Part shown: positions 2,512 to 19,588 of the stretch, one piece after another
How the letters are laid out: the number at the start of each line of letters is the position of its first letter
Numbering within the stretch: the first letter of the stretch is position 1
Virus record (IMG/VR): IMGVR_UViG_3300020477_000697
Location: 1 to 22,393 of that record
Source of the DNA: a virus
Reading direction: 5' to 3' (one strand)
DNA: 22,393 nt
The notes under the pieces: generated by a model
The model's database searches: none
What the model was told of the DNA's origin: nothing
The model's input: only the letters and a program-made list of their open reading frames with translations
Made by a program: the position numbers and the translations under genes

Positions 2512-5135
2512 TGCCAAAGCAAACACTTACATTAAATGATTTTTCTGGAGGTTTAAATACAGTTAAAGACCCTAGAGACATTGCTATGAATGAGCTTTCA
2601 GCAGCTACCAATATAATGGTAGATAAGCAAGGAGCTATACGAACTGTTGGCAAATGGGTTGCTCATGGCACTGTACAGTCTCAAGCTGCTACGCTTTCTG
2701 GCGGTTATGGTATGGCTATATTAGAATCTGACTATGAAACACAACCTATATCAATAACAGGAGCATCTGATATAGATTTTGCAAGTGTTAAATTAAGTGG
2801 TGGCACTTCTTTAACAGGTGGTAATGCTAGATATATAACTAGGTCTGTTTTTAATGATGGTTTTTCATATTCTAGTCCAGATGTAACTGTTACTACAACA
2901 GCAGCTCATGGGCTTTCTGTTGGTGATTCTGTATTTATTGATGGTGTGGTTAGCGATAAATATGAAGGCGTTCATACAGTAAAAGCAGTGCCGAGCACTA
3001 CAACATATACTTCTGAAGTTTCTGACGCTAGTTATTCTTCTGGAAATCCGGGAGCTACTTTTCATAGATTAGGTTTAGCTGTTGCTGCATCAGGTGGAGG
3101 AACAGGATTTGTTAATGGTAGTGAAATACTTGTTACTGGTACAAGTAATAATGATGGATATTATACTGTTAAGTCAACAAGAAATAGTGATAGTCAATTA
3201 ATAGTTCAAAAAGATTTAACCGCTGAAGTTGGTACATCTGCTGTTGTAAAGAGTTTGCCAAAAGAAGATTATTTATTATTATTATCTGACGCTGATAATG
3301 GAAAGATAGATATATATTCTAAAAATAGAGATACATGGACAGCTGACCAGATAACTATTGATTCTACAGGAGGAAAATTAAGTGGAGTAACTCAACCTGT
3401 TTATTATTCTGTTGATAACGCTATAAGGGCAAGCGATGCTAATTTTGCTCTTGGAAACGATACTAAATGGTTTGGTTTTATTAAAAGAACGCATTTTGAA
3501 GGATGTACAGCTGAAGATAAATTTTTAGGTTGGTTTGAAAAAGATAATAAACTTTCTCCTCCTACAGATGGAGCTGTTGGAGATACTTATCCAGTAGATA
3601 ATGTAGGATTTGATTTAGAAATAGCTACACCTGCAAATACAGATAGTTTATGGACAGCAGGGACATATCAAGTGGCTTCTACTTTTATATATGATGGAAA
3701 TCAAGAATCATTATTATTTGAGTATCCTTCGTCAACACATGATTTTGATGTAGCTGAAGGAGATAGTGTTACTATAAGTGTTCATGCTCATACAGATGGC
3801 ACTGGATATAATCCTAGAATTAGCGGAGCAAGAATATATACTAAAATAGATGGCTCAGATGACCCTTGGTTTTTATTATGTGATATTGATATGAGAAGAG
3901 GGGGAAGAGCTACGTTAGATGGAGATTATATAGCTTGGACAAATGGTTCTTCAGCAGCAACAGATATAGATACTGGAACAATTACATCTTTGTCTCAAAA
4001 TATAGATACCTATGAATCTTTAAATGGATATGCTCACGATGTTGAATCTAATTCTTTAGGAGATGAGGGTGAACAATGGAAGAATGCTGTTGTTGCTAAT
4101 AGAAGGGCTTTCTTAGCGGGTGTAAGAAGAATTGATGTTAGCACAGGCTTACATACAACATATGGAGATAGAATATATTATTCAGAAATAGGTAGATATG
4201 ATACATTTCCTTCTCATAATTATATAGATGCTGTATTAGGAGATTCTGAATCTTATATTGGTATACAAGAGTATGCAGATAGATTGTTAGCATTTAAAGA
4301 AAATTCAGTACAAATAATTAATGTTGCTTCATCTTCTGACTCTGGCTGGTTTTTAGAAGAAAATTTAAAGTTTCATGGTATTAGACATCCATCAGCGGCT
4401 ACTAAGACACAGTATGGTATAGCGTGGATAAATGATGGCGGATGTTATTTGTATAATGGTAGAAGAGTGGTAAATTTAATAGATGATAAAATAGATGATG
4501 ATGAGTGGTCTTCTTTTATTGGTGTAACAGAAACTCATGCTTCTATTATAGGATATGAAAGACATAAAAAACAACTTATTATTATGAAAGACTGTACAGG
4601 AACTACAGCTTCTAGCGGAGATGCTTATTTATATGATTTTAAAATAAAATCTTGGGTAAAATTGTTAGACGCATTTACTGATAGCATAGTATATTCAAAT
4701 TTTGTACATGATTGGAATGGAGATTTACTTATATCTAGAGAAAATAGTAGTAATATTGATTTTTATAAATGGGATAGCGATGATACATCAAACAAATCAA
4801 ATATATCTTTCACAACAAAAGATATTGATTTTGGTAATCCAGCTGTTATTAAAAAAATATATAAAGTATTTGTAACATATAAATCAGATGCCGCTGATGC
4901 CACTCCATTTGATTATGCTGTTGATGGTAAAGGAAATTTTTCAGGGGATGGTGGCGGAGCATTAACAGGTAACTTTGCTGATACTTCTGATAAATGGGAT
5001 GTGCTCACGGCAACTCCTTCATCTACGCTATCTGTTCAAAGTTTACAATTAAAGCTCACAGCTCCTGACGCTAGTTTTTTTGATATAAATGATATAACTA
5101 TAGAATATAGACCAATACATAAAAGAGTATCGTAA
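2511..5135 (+). CDS. Virion neck/tail structural protein, beta-propeller type, with inserted beta domains
   Basis: An 874-residue protein from a GTG sharing its first base with the preceding TAG. The N-terminus (LNDFSGGLNTVKDPRDIAMN, residues 8-27) is the FSGGLN signature seen at the start of many phage neck/tail ring or packaged-DNA-stabilising proteins. Residues about 250-760 hold repeated beta-rich units with typical propeller turns, for example YGDRIYYSEIGRYDTFP, then DRLLAFKENSVQIINV. Residues about 123-180 and 186-248 look like two small inserted beta domains (HGLSVGDSVFIDGV and NGSEILVTGTSNNDGYYTV). The C-terminus (about 770-874) is another beta domain. The protein probably closes the head-tail junction or forms the short tail tube. 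The gene is certain; the exact virion position is inferred. Confidence 0.7.
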   Translation: MPKQTLTLNDFSGGLNTVKDPRDIAMNELSAATNIMVDKQGAIRTVGKWVAHGTVQSQAATLSGGYGMAILESDYETQPISITGASDIDFASVKLSGGTSLTGGNARYITRSVFNDGFSYSSPDVTVTTTAAHGLSVGDSVFIDGVVSDKYEGVHTVKAVPSTTTYTSEVSDASYSSGNPGATFHRLGLAVAASGGGTGFVNGSEILVTGTSNNDGYYTVKSTRNSDSQLIVQKDLTAEVGTSAVVKSLPKEDYLLLLSDADNGKIDIYSKNRDTWTADQITIDSTGGKLSGVTQPVYYSVDNAIRASDANFALGNDTKWFGFIKRTHFEGCTAEDKFLGWFEKDNKLSPPTDGAVGDTYPVDNVGFDLEIATPANTDSLWTAGTYQVASTFIYDGNQESLLFEYPSSTHDFDVAEGDSVTISVHAHTDGTGYNPRISGARIYTKIDGSDDPWFLLCDIDMRRGGRATLDGDYIAWTNGSSAATDIDTGTITSLSQNIDTYESLNGYAHDVESNSLGDEGEQWKNAVVANRRAFLAGVRRIDVSTGLHTTYGDRIYYSEIGRYDTFPSHNYIDAVLGDSESYIGIQEYADRLLAFKENSVQIINVASSSDSGWFLEENLKFHGIRHPSAATKTQYGIAWINDGGCYLYNGRRVVNLIDDKIDDDEWSSFIGVTETHASIIGYERHKKQLIIMKDCTGTTASSGDAYLYDFKIKSWVKLLDAFTDSIVYSNFVHDWNGDLLISRENSSNIDFYKWDSDDTSNKSNISFTTKDIDFGNPAVIKKIYKVFVTYKSDAADATPFDYAVDGKGNFSGDGGGALTGNFADTSDKWDVLTATPSSTLSVQSLQLKLTAPDASFFDINDITIEYRPIHKRVS

Positions 5136-5900: not shown

Positions 5901-7451
5901 ATGGCGTATAAAAACAATTTATTAGAATATTATGGTGGAGGTTCAGTCCCGTACCGACAAGGTTATGAAGAAGGTGGGGAGGTTCCTAGATTTAAAAGTA
6001 AAAAAGATTTTGCAAAGTATTATAAAGATGTAATGAGTACATTAAAAAGCGATAAAGAAATGGGTGGTGATGAGTATGGAATATCTTTATATGAAGGAGT
6101 TGACAGTTCTAGAGTTAGCTTACTAGATAAAATGTCAGAACAATTTTGGCAAGATAATAGAAAAAAACTTTTAGATAAAACTGGATTTGATGCTGGATAT
6201 GAACGCTCAAAAAATATTTTTACTGGAAAGTATCCAGTAGGAAAGGAATTAAAAAATTTAGAAGAATATTATCTTAATAAAAAATATGGTGAAGGGCTTC
6301 AAGATTCATTAAATATATATTCAGAATTTAATAAAGGCGGTTCAGTAGGAAATAGTTTACTAGGTATGCAAAGAGGCGGATATACTGGTGGATTTGGCGG
6401 AGGTAGGGTTCGTGCAAATTTAGCAAGGTATAGAAAAATAAGAGATGCTAGTGAAGATGTATCAAGAAGAGCTAAAGAAATAAAAGAAAAGAAAGCAAAG
6501 TCAGGACTGTTTGGAAAGATATTAGGTAAAGCAGCTGAGTGGGGTACTGGAGCATTACTTGCTCCTATATTAGGACCGGGTGCTTTAATAGCAGCTAAAG
6601 CTGTAGGAAGAGGCATCGGTAGTTATGCAGGCGCTAAAGCTGGTTACGGAGATAAAGTGGGTTCAGGGTTAGAGCAAACTAAATGGTTAGCATCTGATAG
6701 AAAAAAATTAGAAAGGTCTGAAAAAGGTTTAGAAGAATCATTTAAAGGCGCTGGGTATGCAGGAGTAGCTGCTGGAGCTATGAAAGGTGTTACAGATTAT
6801 GCTAAAAGCCAAGGAGCTGATAGTGTAGAAGATTGGTTGCAAGCTAAGACAGGTATAAAAAGAAATCCTTTTGAAACTCCAAATTATATGCAAGGCCCTG
6901 ACGCAACAATAGCTCAACAAACTTATGAAAAAGCTTTAGCTGACCCTACCTCTAGAACAGCAGCGGCTGAAATGGGCACATCTATACAAGAAGGTTTAGA
7001 TAAAACAATGGCTTCTTCTAAAATGGGCGGTTGGAAAATAAATCCTGAAATGGAAATAACTAAAACTGGATTTAAAGATTATTCTTTAAACCCTTCTATG
7101 GGGGGATTTAATCTTCCTTCTATGGGAAGTCCTACAGCAGCTACAGACCCATTTCAATATGCACAATCTGGCTTTGGTGCTCAGGAAGGACAAAAAGGTC
7201 TTCTTGGAGGATTGTCTGGATTAGCTGAAGGACAGTCAAGTTTATTAGCTCAACAGCCTTGGGCTCAAGAAGGATTTCAATTTGCTCAAGAACCTAGCGT
7301 TGGACAAAATCTTTTTAATCAATTAGCAGAAACTTCTGAACAAGGCAACCCTCTTGAATGGATGACTAACGCAGCTTTTGCAGCTCCATACGCTGGAGGT
7401 GGTATAGTAAGAGATGATAACGCTTTAATAGATATGATATATAGGAGATAA
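5901..7451 (+). CDS. Gly-rich internal virion protein with GG-x-V motifs
   Basis: A 516-residue protein, probably a virion component judging by its place between appendage and ejection-type proteins. It has short GG-x-V motifs at residues 13-16 (GGSV), 25-28 (GGEV), 146-149 (GGSV) and 500-503 (GGIV), and a related RGGYTGGFGGG stretch. Residues about 203-250 form a Gly/Ala-rich hydrophobic segment (LAPILGPGALIAAKAVGRGI) that could insert in a membrane or pack as a glycine zipper. The C-terminal half is rich in Gln, Gly, Met and Pro and looks flexible. No enzymatic motif is seen. It ends 2 bases before the next gene, which carries motifs that often follow GG-x-V segments within one protein, so the two may be split parts of one ancestral protein. 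Confidence 0.6.
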   Translation: MAYKNNLLEYYGGGSVPYRQGYEEGGEVPRFKSKKDFAKYYKDVMSTLKSDKEMGGDEYGISLYEGVDSSRVSLLDKMSEQFWQDNRKKLLDKTGFDAGYERSKNIFTGKYPVGKELKNLEEYYLNKKYGEGLQDSLNIYSEFNKGGSVGNSLLGMQRGGYTGGFGGGRVRANLARYRKIRDASEDVSRRAKEIKEKKAKSGLFGKILGKAAEWGTGALLAPILGPGALIAAKAVGRGIGSYAGAKAGYGDKVGSGLEQTKWLASDRKKLERSEKGLEESFKGAGYAGVAAGAMKGVTDYAKSQGADSVEDWLQAKTGIKRNPFETPNYMQGPDATIAQQTYEKALADPTSRTAAAEMGTSIQEGLDKTMASSKMGGWKINPEMEITKTGFKDYSLNPSMGGFNLPSMGSPTAATDPFQYAQSGFGAQEGQKGLLGGLSGLAEGQSSLLAQQPWAQEGFQFAQEPSVGQNLFNQLAETSEQGNPLEWMTNAAFAAPYAGGGIVRDDNALIDMIYRR

Positions 7452-18736: not shown

Positions 18737-18928
18737 TTATTTCTCACTTTCTGGTATTTTCTCAAATCGATAATACCCTTTTGTTACATATAAGCGAAGT
18801 TTTGCAAGTCTTCTAGCAGCAGCTCCATCTTTCTGTATCTTACCTTTCTTTAACAGTCGCTCATACAATACTATTGTTTCAATAATTGATATTTTGTCTA
18901 TTGTTCTATGTATGTCGTGTATTCTCAT
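18737..18928 (-). CDS. Small basic helical protein of unknown function
   Basis: A 63-residue protein rich in Lys, Arg and Ile, apparently all helix (RTIDKISIIETIVLYERLL, then GAAARRLAKLRLYVTKGYYR). A clear ribosome site (AAGGAAAGG read on the minus strand) lies a few bases before the ATG at 18928, downstream of the 146-base structured gap. No family recognised. It is the first gene of the promoter-distal half of the early operon, so its expression may be set by the structured leader before it. Confidence 0.55.
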   Translation of the reverse strand: MRIHDIHRTIDKISIIETIVLYERLLKKGKIQKDGAAARRLAKLRLYVTKGYYRFEKIPESEK

Positions 18929-19074
18929 ATTACCTTTCCTTATTATATGAGGCCGCTATTTCCCGGGAGCGGAGAAAAGGATTTAAACTCCGCAGCGACC
19001 CCATACATTGCCAACCAAACAAACAGCCTTTTTTGCTGTCCGTGCTCCCTTTTAAACAGTGCCACATACCTTTA
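18929..19074 (-). other. GC-rich, hairpin-dense intergenic region inside the early operon
   Basis: This is the only sizeable gap within the tightly packed minus-strand operon. Positions 18949-19049 hold about 54 G+C in 101 bases by hand count, against about one third around it. Possible pairings are GCGGAG (18969-18974) with CTCCGC (18988-18993); CCGCT (18953-18957) with AGCGG (18968-18972); ACAGC (19023-19027) with GCTGT (19035-19039); and a long-range GGGAGCG (18965-18971) with TGCTCCC (19043-19049). The first, second and fourth share bases and cannot all form. A structured leader, small RNA or decayed gene are all possible. Two overlapping short frames (18930-19067 and 18943-19065) run through it. 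Confidence 0.45.
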
Positions 19075-19082
19075 TCACTGTT
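19055..19082 (-). promoter_or_regulatory. Hairpin over the nuclease stop codon
   Basis: AACAGTG (19055-19061) pairs perfectly with CACTGTT (19076-19082) around a 14-base loop, spanning the TGA (19075-19077) of the nuclease gene. No U-tract follows, so it is more likely an RNA-stability or translation-limiting element than a terminator. Confidence 0.35.
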
Positions 19083-19407
19083 CAAATTGTTTATCTAATA
19101 ATGATATTAGCAGTAAATAGTGTTCTAGCGGGACAGAAATATATGGACTCATTCTATCAGCTCTAAACACTACGCCAATTTCTTTCTTTTCCGGTAAAAC
19201 CCATCTAGGTACAACTTTTCTACGCTTACAACCATAGTATTTACCGTTTATTTCTACGTCCCCTTTTTCGTGTTGCGCTCCCCCTCTGTCTCTGTTGTGT
19301 GCTTCTAGGTTGAAGCTCTTTGCCATCTTTACTGCTTGTCTTTGCAGTTCCGCTCCCCTCTGTCGGTTGCGTCTGCCCCTCTTCTGATGCTCTTTTGATT
19401 TGCTCAT
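19075..19407 (-). CDS. PD-(D/E)xK-like nuclease (Holliday-junction-resolvase-like)
   Basis: A 110-residue basic protein with the layout of small phage PD-(D/E)xK nucleases: a basic N-terminus with RQRGAELQRQAVKMAKSF (Glu20 as the helix-1 acid), then RDRGGAQHEKGDVEING (Asp50), then YYGCKRRK (Lys61), and a conserved-looking VVFRADRMSPYISVPL end. Such enzymes cut branched or packaged DNA by metal-dependent hydrolysis. The E of the E-x-K half is Gly59, with Glu52 two residues after the Asp, so either the acid has moved or activity is weakened. Its first 167 bases lie within the preceding gene in another frame; the ATG at 19407 keeps the whole domain. Family call is by pattern only. Confidence 0.55.
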   Translation of the reverse strand: MSKSKEHQKRGRRNRQRGAELQRQAVKMAKSFNLEAHNRDRGGAQHEKGDVEINGKYYGCKRRKVVPRWVLPEKKEIGVVFRADRMSPYISVPLEHYLLLISLLDKQFEQ

Positions 19408-19588
19408 CTACTTTTTCACTTATCCTTTCTGTAAAGGGTTCTAAGTCATTTTTATATTCAAGATATTGCTCAAACATATTCATTGTAGCGTTTAAGTTTG
19501 GATTTATCACTTTTTGTAGATAAATCTCTATCATACCTATTCGCTTTTCAAGTTCTTTTATCGTAGGTTTTCTATTCGCATTTTTCAC
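19241..19588 (-). CDS. Coiled-coil protein of unknown function, long overlap with nuclease gene
   Basis: A 115-residue protein from a GTG with a strong ribosome site (AAGAGGAG on the minus strand, 6 bases upstream). Residues 1-60 form a convincing helical region (RKPTIKELEKRIGMIEIYL, then MFEQYLEYKNDLEPFTERIS). Residues 61-115, encoded where the nuclease gene also runs, are low in complexity and basic (Gln/Ser/Thr/Arg, ending RKRGRRNKR). The N-terminal half therefore looks selected as protein, while the tail may be dictated by the nuclease frame. No family recognised. It lies between helicase and nuclease, so an accessory role in replication or recombination is plausible. Confidence 0.55.
   Translation of the reverse strand: MKNANRKPTIKELEKRIGMIEIYLQKVINPNLNATMNMFEQYLEYKNDLEPFTERISEKVDEQIKRASEEGQTQPTEGSGTAKTSSKDGKELQPRSTQQRQRGSATRKRGRRNKR

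Follow-up and report, generated by a model that had tools for sequence, protein, structure and literature searches.

A structured gap in a minus-strand operon

The window, by which we mean the whole 22,393-nucleotide stretch of viral DNA analysed here (IMG/VR record IMGVR_UViG_3300020477_000697), carries an operon on the minus strand, so that the transcript corresponds to the reverse complement of the window. Within this operon, a gap of 146 bases (18929-19074) separates the minus-strand ORFs p110 (19407..19075) and p63 (18928..18737), and the order beyond p63 is p120, a methyltransferase gene and then a DUF736 gene. The p110 gene also forms an overprinted pair with p115 (19241-19588, minus strand), which overlaps p110 (19075-19407) by ~167 bases in a different frame; this long overlap is retained in the close relatives L001 and L006 and is shorter in L003 and L005.

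The sequence-only reading had singled out the gap as a GC-rich island of hairpins that share bases. Its base count was exact, with 54 G+C among the 101 bases of 18949-19049, a value reached by 19 of the 22,293 segments of the same size in the record; across the full gap, G+C amounted to 66 of 146 bases (45%). All of the stems that it named were located in place, including GCGGAG (18969-18974) with CTCCGC (18988-18993) and GGGAGCG (18965-18971) with TGCTCCC (19043-19049). The third stem required a different partner: CCGCT is present at 18953-18957, and its homologous partner is AGCGACCCC at 18994-19002, a pairing that produces an 11-bp minus-strand stem including G-U pairs. The strand had to be corrected as well, since the hairpins of a minus-strand operon are to be taken on the reverse complement, where the following features were assigned.

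19075..19407, minus strand: p110, upstream gene of 110 aa, resolvase-like nuclease by a weak PHROG match
18929..19074, minus strand: complete intercistronic element, lying between p110 and p63 (63 aa)
19044..19069, minus strand: 5' competing arm GTATGTGGCACTGTTTAAAAGGGAGC, can pair with 18945-18970 and thereby exclude the class-A hairpin; only in the window, L001 and L006
19019..19043, minus strand: small hairpin ACGGACAGC-AAAAAAG-GCTGTTTGT; letters vary and pairing is largely retained in L001 and L006
19008..19019, minus strand: TTTGGTTGGCAA, invariant in the window, L001 and L006; carries the UUGGUUGGC motif
18994..19004, minus strand: class-A hairpin, outer stem P1 5' strand ATGGGGTCGCT, pairs with 18947-18957; covaries in eight phages and matches model R1
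18988..18993, minus strand: class-A hairpin, inner stem P2 5' strand GCGGAG
18975..18987, minus strand: pyrimidine-rich loop UUUAAAUCCUUUU (UUAYGCCUCCUUUCCU or similar in L018-L022)
18969..18974, minus strand: inner stem P2 3' strand CTCCGC
18958..18968, minus strand: 3'-side bulge TCCCGGGAAAT (TTCCGGA or similar in L018-L022)
18947..18957, minus strand: outer stem P1 3' strand AGCGGCCTCAT
18945..18970, minus strand: 3' arm of the competing long-range fold, overlapping P1b, the bulge and part of P2b
18933..18941, minus strand: Shine-Dalgarno (SD) sequence AAGGAAAGG of the next ORF
18737..18928, minus strand: p63, downstream gene, 63 aa, function not assigned

Folding of the minus strand of the gap gave -44.7 kcal/mol (z -2.4, with 3 of 200 shuffles equally good), and folding of the plus strand gave -30.8 kcal/mol. 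Some coding tiles of the operon had a lower z than the gap, indicating that folding energy alone was not exceptional and that the case for an element rests on its relatives. No Rfam 15 family scored at or near its gathering threshold, the best E-value matches lying far below the gathering scores, and ARAGORN returned no tRNA or tmRNA match. Neither an intrinsic terminator (G+C stem plus T run) nor, in a scan with the sigma-70 consensus only, a promoter was found in the gap. INPHARED contained no match to the DNA or to p110, and no description of such an element was found in the open-licence literature.

Conservation and covariation of the class-A hairpin

Two close relatives, L001 and L006, were recovered through DnaB and p110 searches. 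In the downstream half of the element, pairwise identities among the window, L001 and L006 were 60/62, 59/62 and 61/62, compared with 62-67% at the fourfold-degenerate sites of p110 and 60-74% at those of DnaB; the probability of 60 matches in 62 given 65% identity is ~1e-9. Relative to the window, L006 has lost one base and gained two and one bases at separate points, which destroyed the only open frame, and an unrelated 80-aa ORF (7201-7443) has replaced p63 while the element was retained. The letters are thus kept for a non-protein role that is independent of the particular downstream gene, and conservation of the hairpin beyond its flanking genes, which the earlier reading had left to be checked, was borne out. 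A coding gap, suggested by a 51-aa open frame that crosses it in the window, was rejected, the frame being broken in L006 and absent in the distant carriers L018-L022; on these comparisons the element is non-coding. Two further peculiarities of the relatives were recorded, a 4-codon ORF (ATGAAGAAAGAATGA) overlapping the start of the 80-aa ORF in L006 and, in the N6/N4 methyltransferase of L001 (7753-9006), a stretch of ~43 residues bounded by a repeated NKRSVWTV and lacking from the window and L006.

The distant carriers L018-L022 (p110 protein identity to the window 75-78%) have the same hairpin at the same place directly after p110, in which an 11-bp stem, a 3' bulge of 7-8 bases and a 6-bp stem lead to a loop of 16-17 bases. 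A covariance model (R1) built from these five sequences only and run over 63 sources (442 kb) recovered its five training elements and L126, followed by the gap itself in L006, L001 and the window, with E values of 0.005-0.007 for these three. In whole-record scans, R1 gave one match per record in eight carriers and none in eight other records. The window, L001 and L006 conform to the class-A definition of an 11-bp stem, a 3' bulge, a 6-bp stem and a pyrimidine loop directly after p110. The L126 sequence and its counterpart in L128, which score 26.5 bits with R1, had been found through the loop pattern in an unrelated structural operon, and their selection by loop letters led us to treat them as probable convergence. 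In L126 (2416-2458, identical in L128), a GC-rich phage, a 12-bp hairpin with a CCTCCTTTCCT loop lies between structural genes and is followed by a second strong hairpin.

Pair counts were taken from a manual structural alignment of the eight phages and from alignment A7 of the five distant carriers; the MAFFT alignment A4 misplaced the inner stem of the window relative to L018-L022, and its RNAalifold result was therefore discarded. In A7, all 85 cells were paired and five pairs had changed on both sides. The covariation score was reached by none of 500 shuffles, and shifting the partner by 1-3 columns lowered pairing to 44-59%. Among the eight phages, 135 of 136 pairs were formed and none of 5000 permutations was as good, although such permutation counts are not readable as probabilities because the sequences are related. 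Covariation of the local hairpin, the check proposed in the sequence-only reading, was therefore found in both sets. The loop and bulge letters are also conserved, which suggests recognition by a binding partner rather than a plain stem. The hairpin is retained in front of different next genes (p63, the 80-aa ORF, a p120 homologue and a MGNFDID-type ORF). The sequence AAGGAAAG is common to the window, L001, L006, L018 and L019, where it precedes three different genes, and is absent in L020-L022, which have the hairpin and no recognisable SD after it.

Read on the transcript strand, the stems had 16 cells with G-U and none with A-C, and the sense strand was the more stable one in 31 of 33 elements, compared with 394 of 602 control tiles (65%). 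The presence of G-U together with the absence of A-C indicates selection on the mRNA-sense strand, and favours RNA, or single-stranded DNA of this strand, over a repeat in duplex DNA.

In the window, the minimum-energy fold consists of GGGAGC/GCTCCC plus the long-range stem. Forcing the local hairpin cost 2.9 kcal/mol in the window, 0.9 in L001 and 3.7 in L006, so that the gap between the two folds is within model error. The suggestion that the stems compete for shared bases is upheld by these mutually exclusive and near-isoenergetic folds in all three phages, and the element in the window clade is predicted by the energy model to be bistable. The arms of the long-range fold hardly vary and show almost no compensatory changes; covariation across the distant phages supports the local hairpin only, not the long-range fold. 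The SD of the next gene lies outside nested pairing in both folds. Simple leader-type sequestration is thus not evident, as the SD is unburied in either fold. The proposal of a regulatory leader or small RNA with exclusive pairings consequently survived in part: conservation, covariation and near-isoenergetic folds spoke for it, and SD sequestration, a promoter and a terminator were not found.

Further structured elements at this boundary

An 80-locus set was assembled around p110 relatives. At this boundary, dozens of these relatives have structured elements other than the class-A hairpin, a UGGC-loop hairpin being frequent among them, and in many of the 80 loci a structured gap follows p110 or a p63 homologue and usually precedes a DUF736 gene. 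A typical gap of this kind combines a long outer stem, often starting from the upstream stop codon, with internal hairpins, an A-rich stretch and a strong SD; in L058 and L062, ~25 stacked pairs with a 3/3 internal loop are followed by an unstructured A-rich stretch and a strong SD. The UGGC (UGGU) loop recurs among hairpins with different stems. Stems of at least 4 bp surrounded TTGG in 27 of 27 elements and at 25% of control TTGG sites, a contrast somewhat inflated by taking the best of several TTGG sites for each element and single sites for the controls. In many relatives, the UGGC-loop hairpins that follow p110 or p63 share the UUGGUUGGC motif; the window has UUGGUUGGC / UUGGUUGGCAA at the corresponding position without a canonical UGGC-loop hairpin, and common descent of these classes and the window's element is at most a possibility.

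SD sequestration by a UUGGC-GCCAA pseudoknot was considered as a rule for class B and rejected, as it fitted the B1 leaders by eye and did not fit B2 or B3. The elements could belong to DUF736 as a leader or to p110 as a 3' UTR. A scan from the DUF736 side returned mostly the same contigs with p110 upstream, and DUF736 genes that stand behind other genes had no motif-bearing leader, a pattern that does not separate the two readings. L003, L005, L007, L010 and L012 have no gap at the boundary, indicating that the element is not essential to the gene order. Individual loci showed further arrangements: two tandem elements in a single gap after the p110 stop (at or near 3315) in L071, where a UGGC-loop hairpin closed at the stop is followed by a CCGGGGG/CCCCCGG hairpin, and a perfect GGGGTCCCGATATCGGGACCCC hairpin upstream of 2001 in L152, just before a DUF736-like gene. 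One p110 relative lies on a Candidatus Marinimicrobia MAG contig (L134), a weak host clue that may reflect a misbinned phage contig.

Possible roles of the element

Our best reading of the comparative evidence is a cis-acting structured intercistronic RNA element in the early mRNA, with a probable role in controlling the expression of the genes that follow or in partitioning it. Its indifference to the next gene, together with its position at the boundary, fits control of processing, stability or translation. The element would act post-transcriptionally where the replication genes, of which p110 is the last, meet the following cassette, most likely as a translational or mRNA-stability control site. 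A putative phage or host RNA-binding factor would recognise the conserved loop and bulge, its binding would bias the choice between the two folds, and the output of the downstream cassette could then be set independently of the upstream genes. We give about an even chance to the reading in which the hairpin is a control site for a putative protein, and favour it over a plain processing or stability hairpin.

The translational operator of gene 32 in T4 and RB69 occupies an intercistronic leader of early phage mRNA, in which a folded portion gives way to a less ordered A/U-rich segment containing the ribosome site (PMC535899), a layout that the elements described here resemble. It is the nearest well-studied analogue of the class-B elements, and its defining features are lacking in the window. 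Like this operator, the class B1-B3 elements of many relatives directly precede a gene, DUF736, that PHROGs names single-strand DNA binding protein. In contrast, the window has no UUAAA repeats and no established pseudoknot, the sequence and fold are unrelated, and the DUF736 gene comes only after p63, p120 and the methyltransferase. In a gp32-type operator, a pseudoknot nucleation site lies ahead of the SSB gene under control; no such arrangement was found in the gap, which is followed by p63.

An RNase processing or mRNA-stability hairpin is the strongest of the alternatives, possible although not the likely one: the stem would be either cut or block an exonuclease, leaving the replication genes and the cassette on mRNA pieces of different lifetimes without any switching. 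The intercistronic position, the independence from downstream gene identity and the long stems at the same boundary in many relatives (such as L058 and L062, with the 5' arm from the upstream stop codon) are all compatible with it. However, a double-strand-specific nuclease would not need the conserved letters of the class-A loop and bulge or the UGGC loop of many other elements, and the class-A stem has just 11+6 bp. The intercistronic RNase III sites of T7 are hairpins with internal loops between early genes of one polycistronic mRNA. The elements described here resemble them in occupying such positions and in having internal loops, and differ in the conserved loop and bulge letters, the shorter class-A stems and the competing fold of the window clade.

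A bolder proposal, which we regard as rather unlikely, extends the control-site reading to a new family of bistable phage riboregulators. In the window clade, a competing arm would have been added to a conserved hairpin module at the replication-block boundary, creating a two-state switch that responds to a phage protein or to a signal of the infection stage, and related phages would use a UGGC-loop version for the SSB gene.

A pseudoknot hiding the ribosome site, with the loop CCUUUUCU or CUUUCCU pairing with the downstream SD AGGAAAG(G), would be compatible with the 6-8 possible pairs seen by inspection in the window, L001, L006, L018 and L019, where the same SD stands before three different genes. 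Yet the loop is unchanged in L020-L022, which have no such SD, and some complementarity to any SD is to be expected of pyrimidine loops; we consider this candidate improbable. Still poorer prospects attach to a trans-acting small RNA processed from the transcript, whose C-rich loop might, as in CUCCUCCC-type RNAs, pair with the SDs of further mRNAs. The L018-L022 hairpin does resemble the CUCCUCCC-loop (cuckoo-type) sRNAs in its anti-SD-like pyrimidine loop, CCUCCUUUCCU, which is invariant. Unlike those RNAs, it is not a free-standing transcription unit, its motif differs, the loop in the window lacks CCUCC and no Rfam sRNA matched; the negative search of the gap for a promoter or terminator also weighs against an independent small RNA.

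Marginally less probable again is a DNA-level element, a hairpin serving as a replication start or as a recombination or resolvase substrate. The conserved inverted repeat does adjoin the DnaB helicase and resolvase-like genes, but in a duplex cruciform the two strands must pair equally well, at odds with the 16 G-U and no A-C on the mRNA-sense strand. An ordinary spacer or a decayed small gene, to which the 51-aa frame might point, retains almost no probability given the letters conserved across the broken frame of L006, the absence of the frame from L018-L022 and conservation above that of silent sites.

The structured RNAs of uncultivated marine-type phages are poorly charted, and the intercistronic element described here has clear comparative support and a fixed genomic address that eases the collection of more members. 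If it were a true switch, it would offer a simple handle on separating replication-gene output from that of the methyltransferase cassette.
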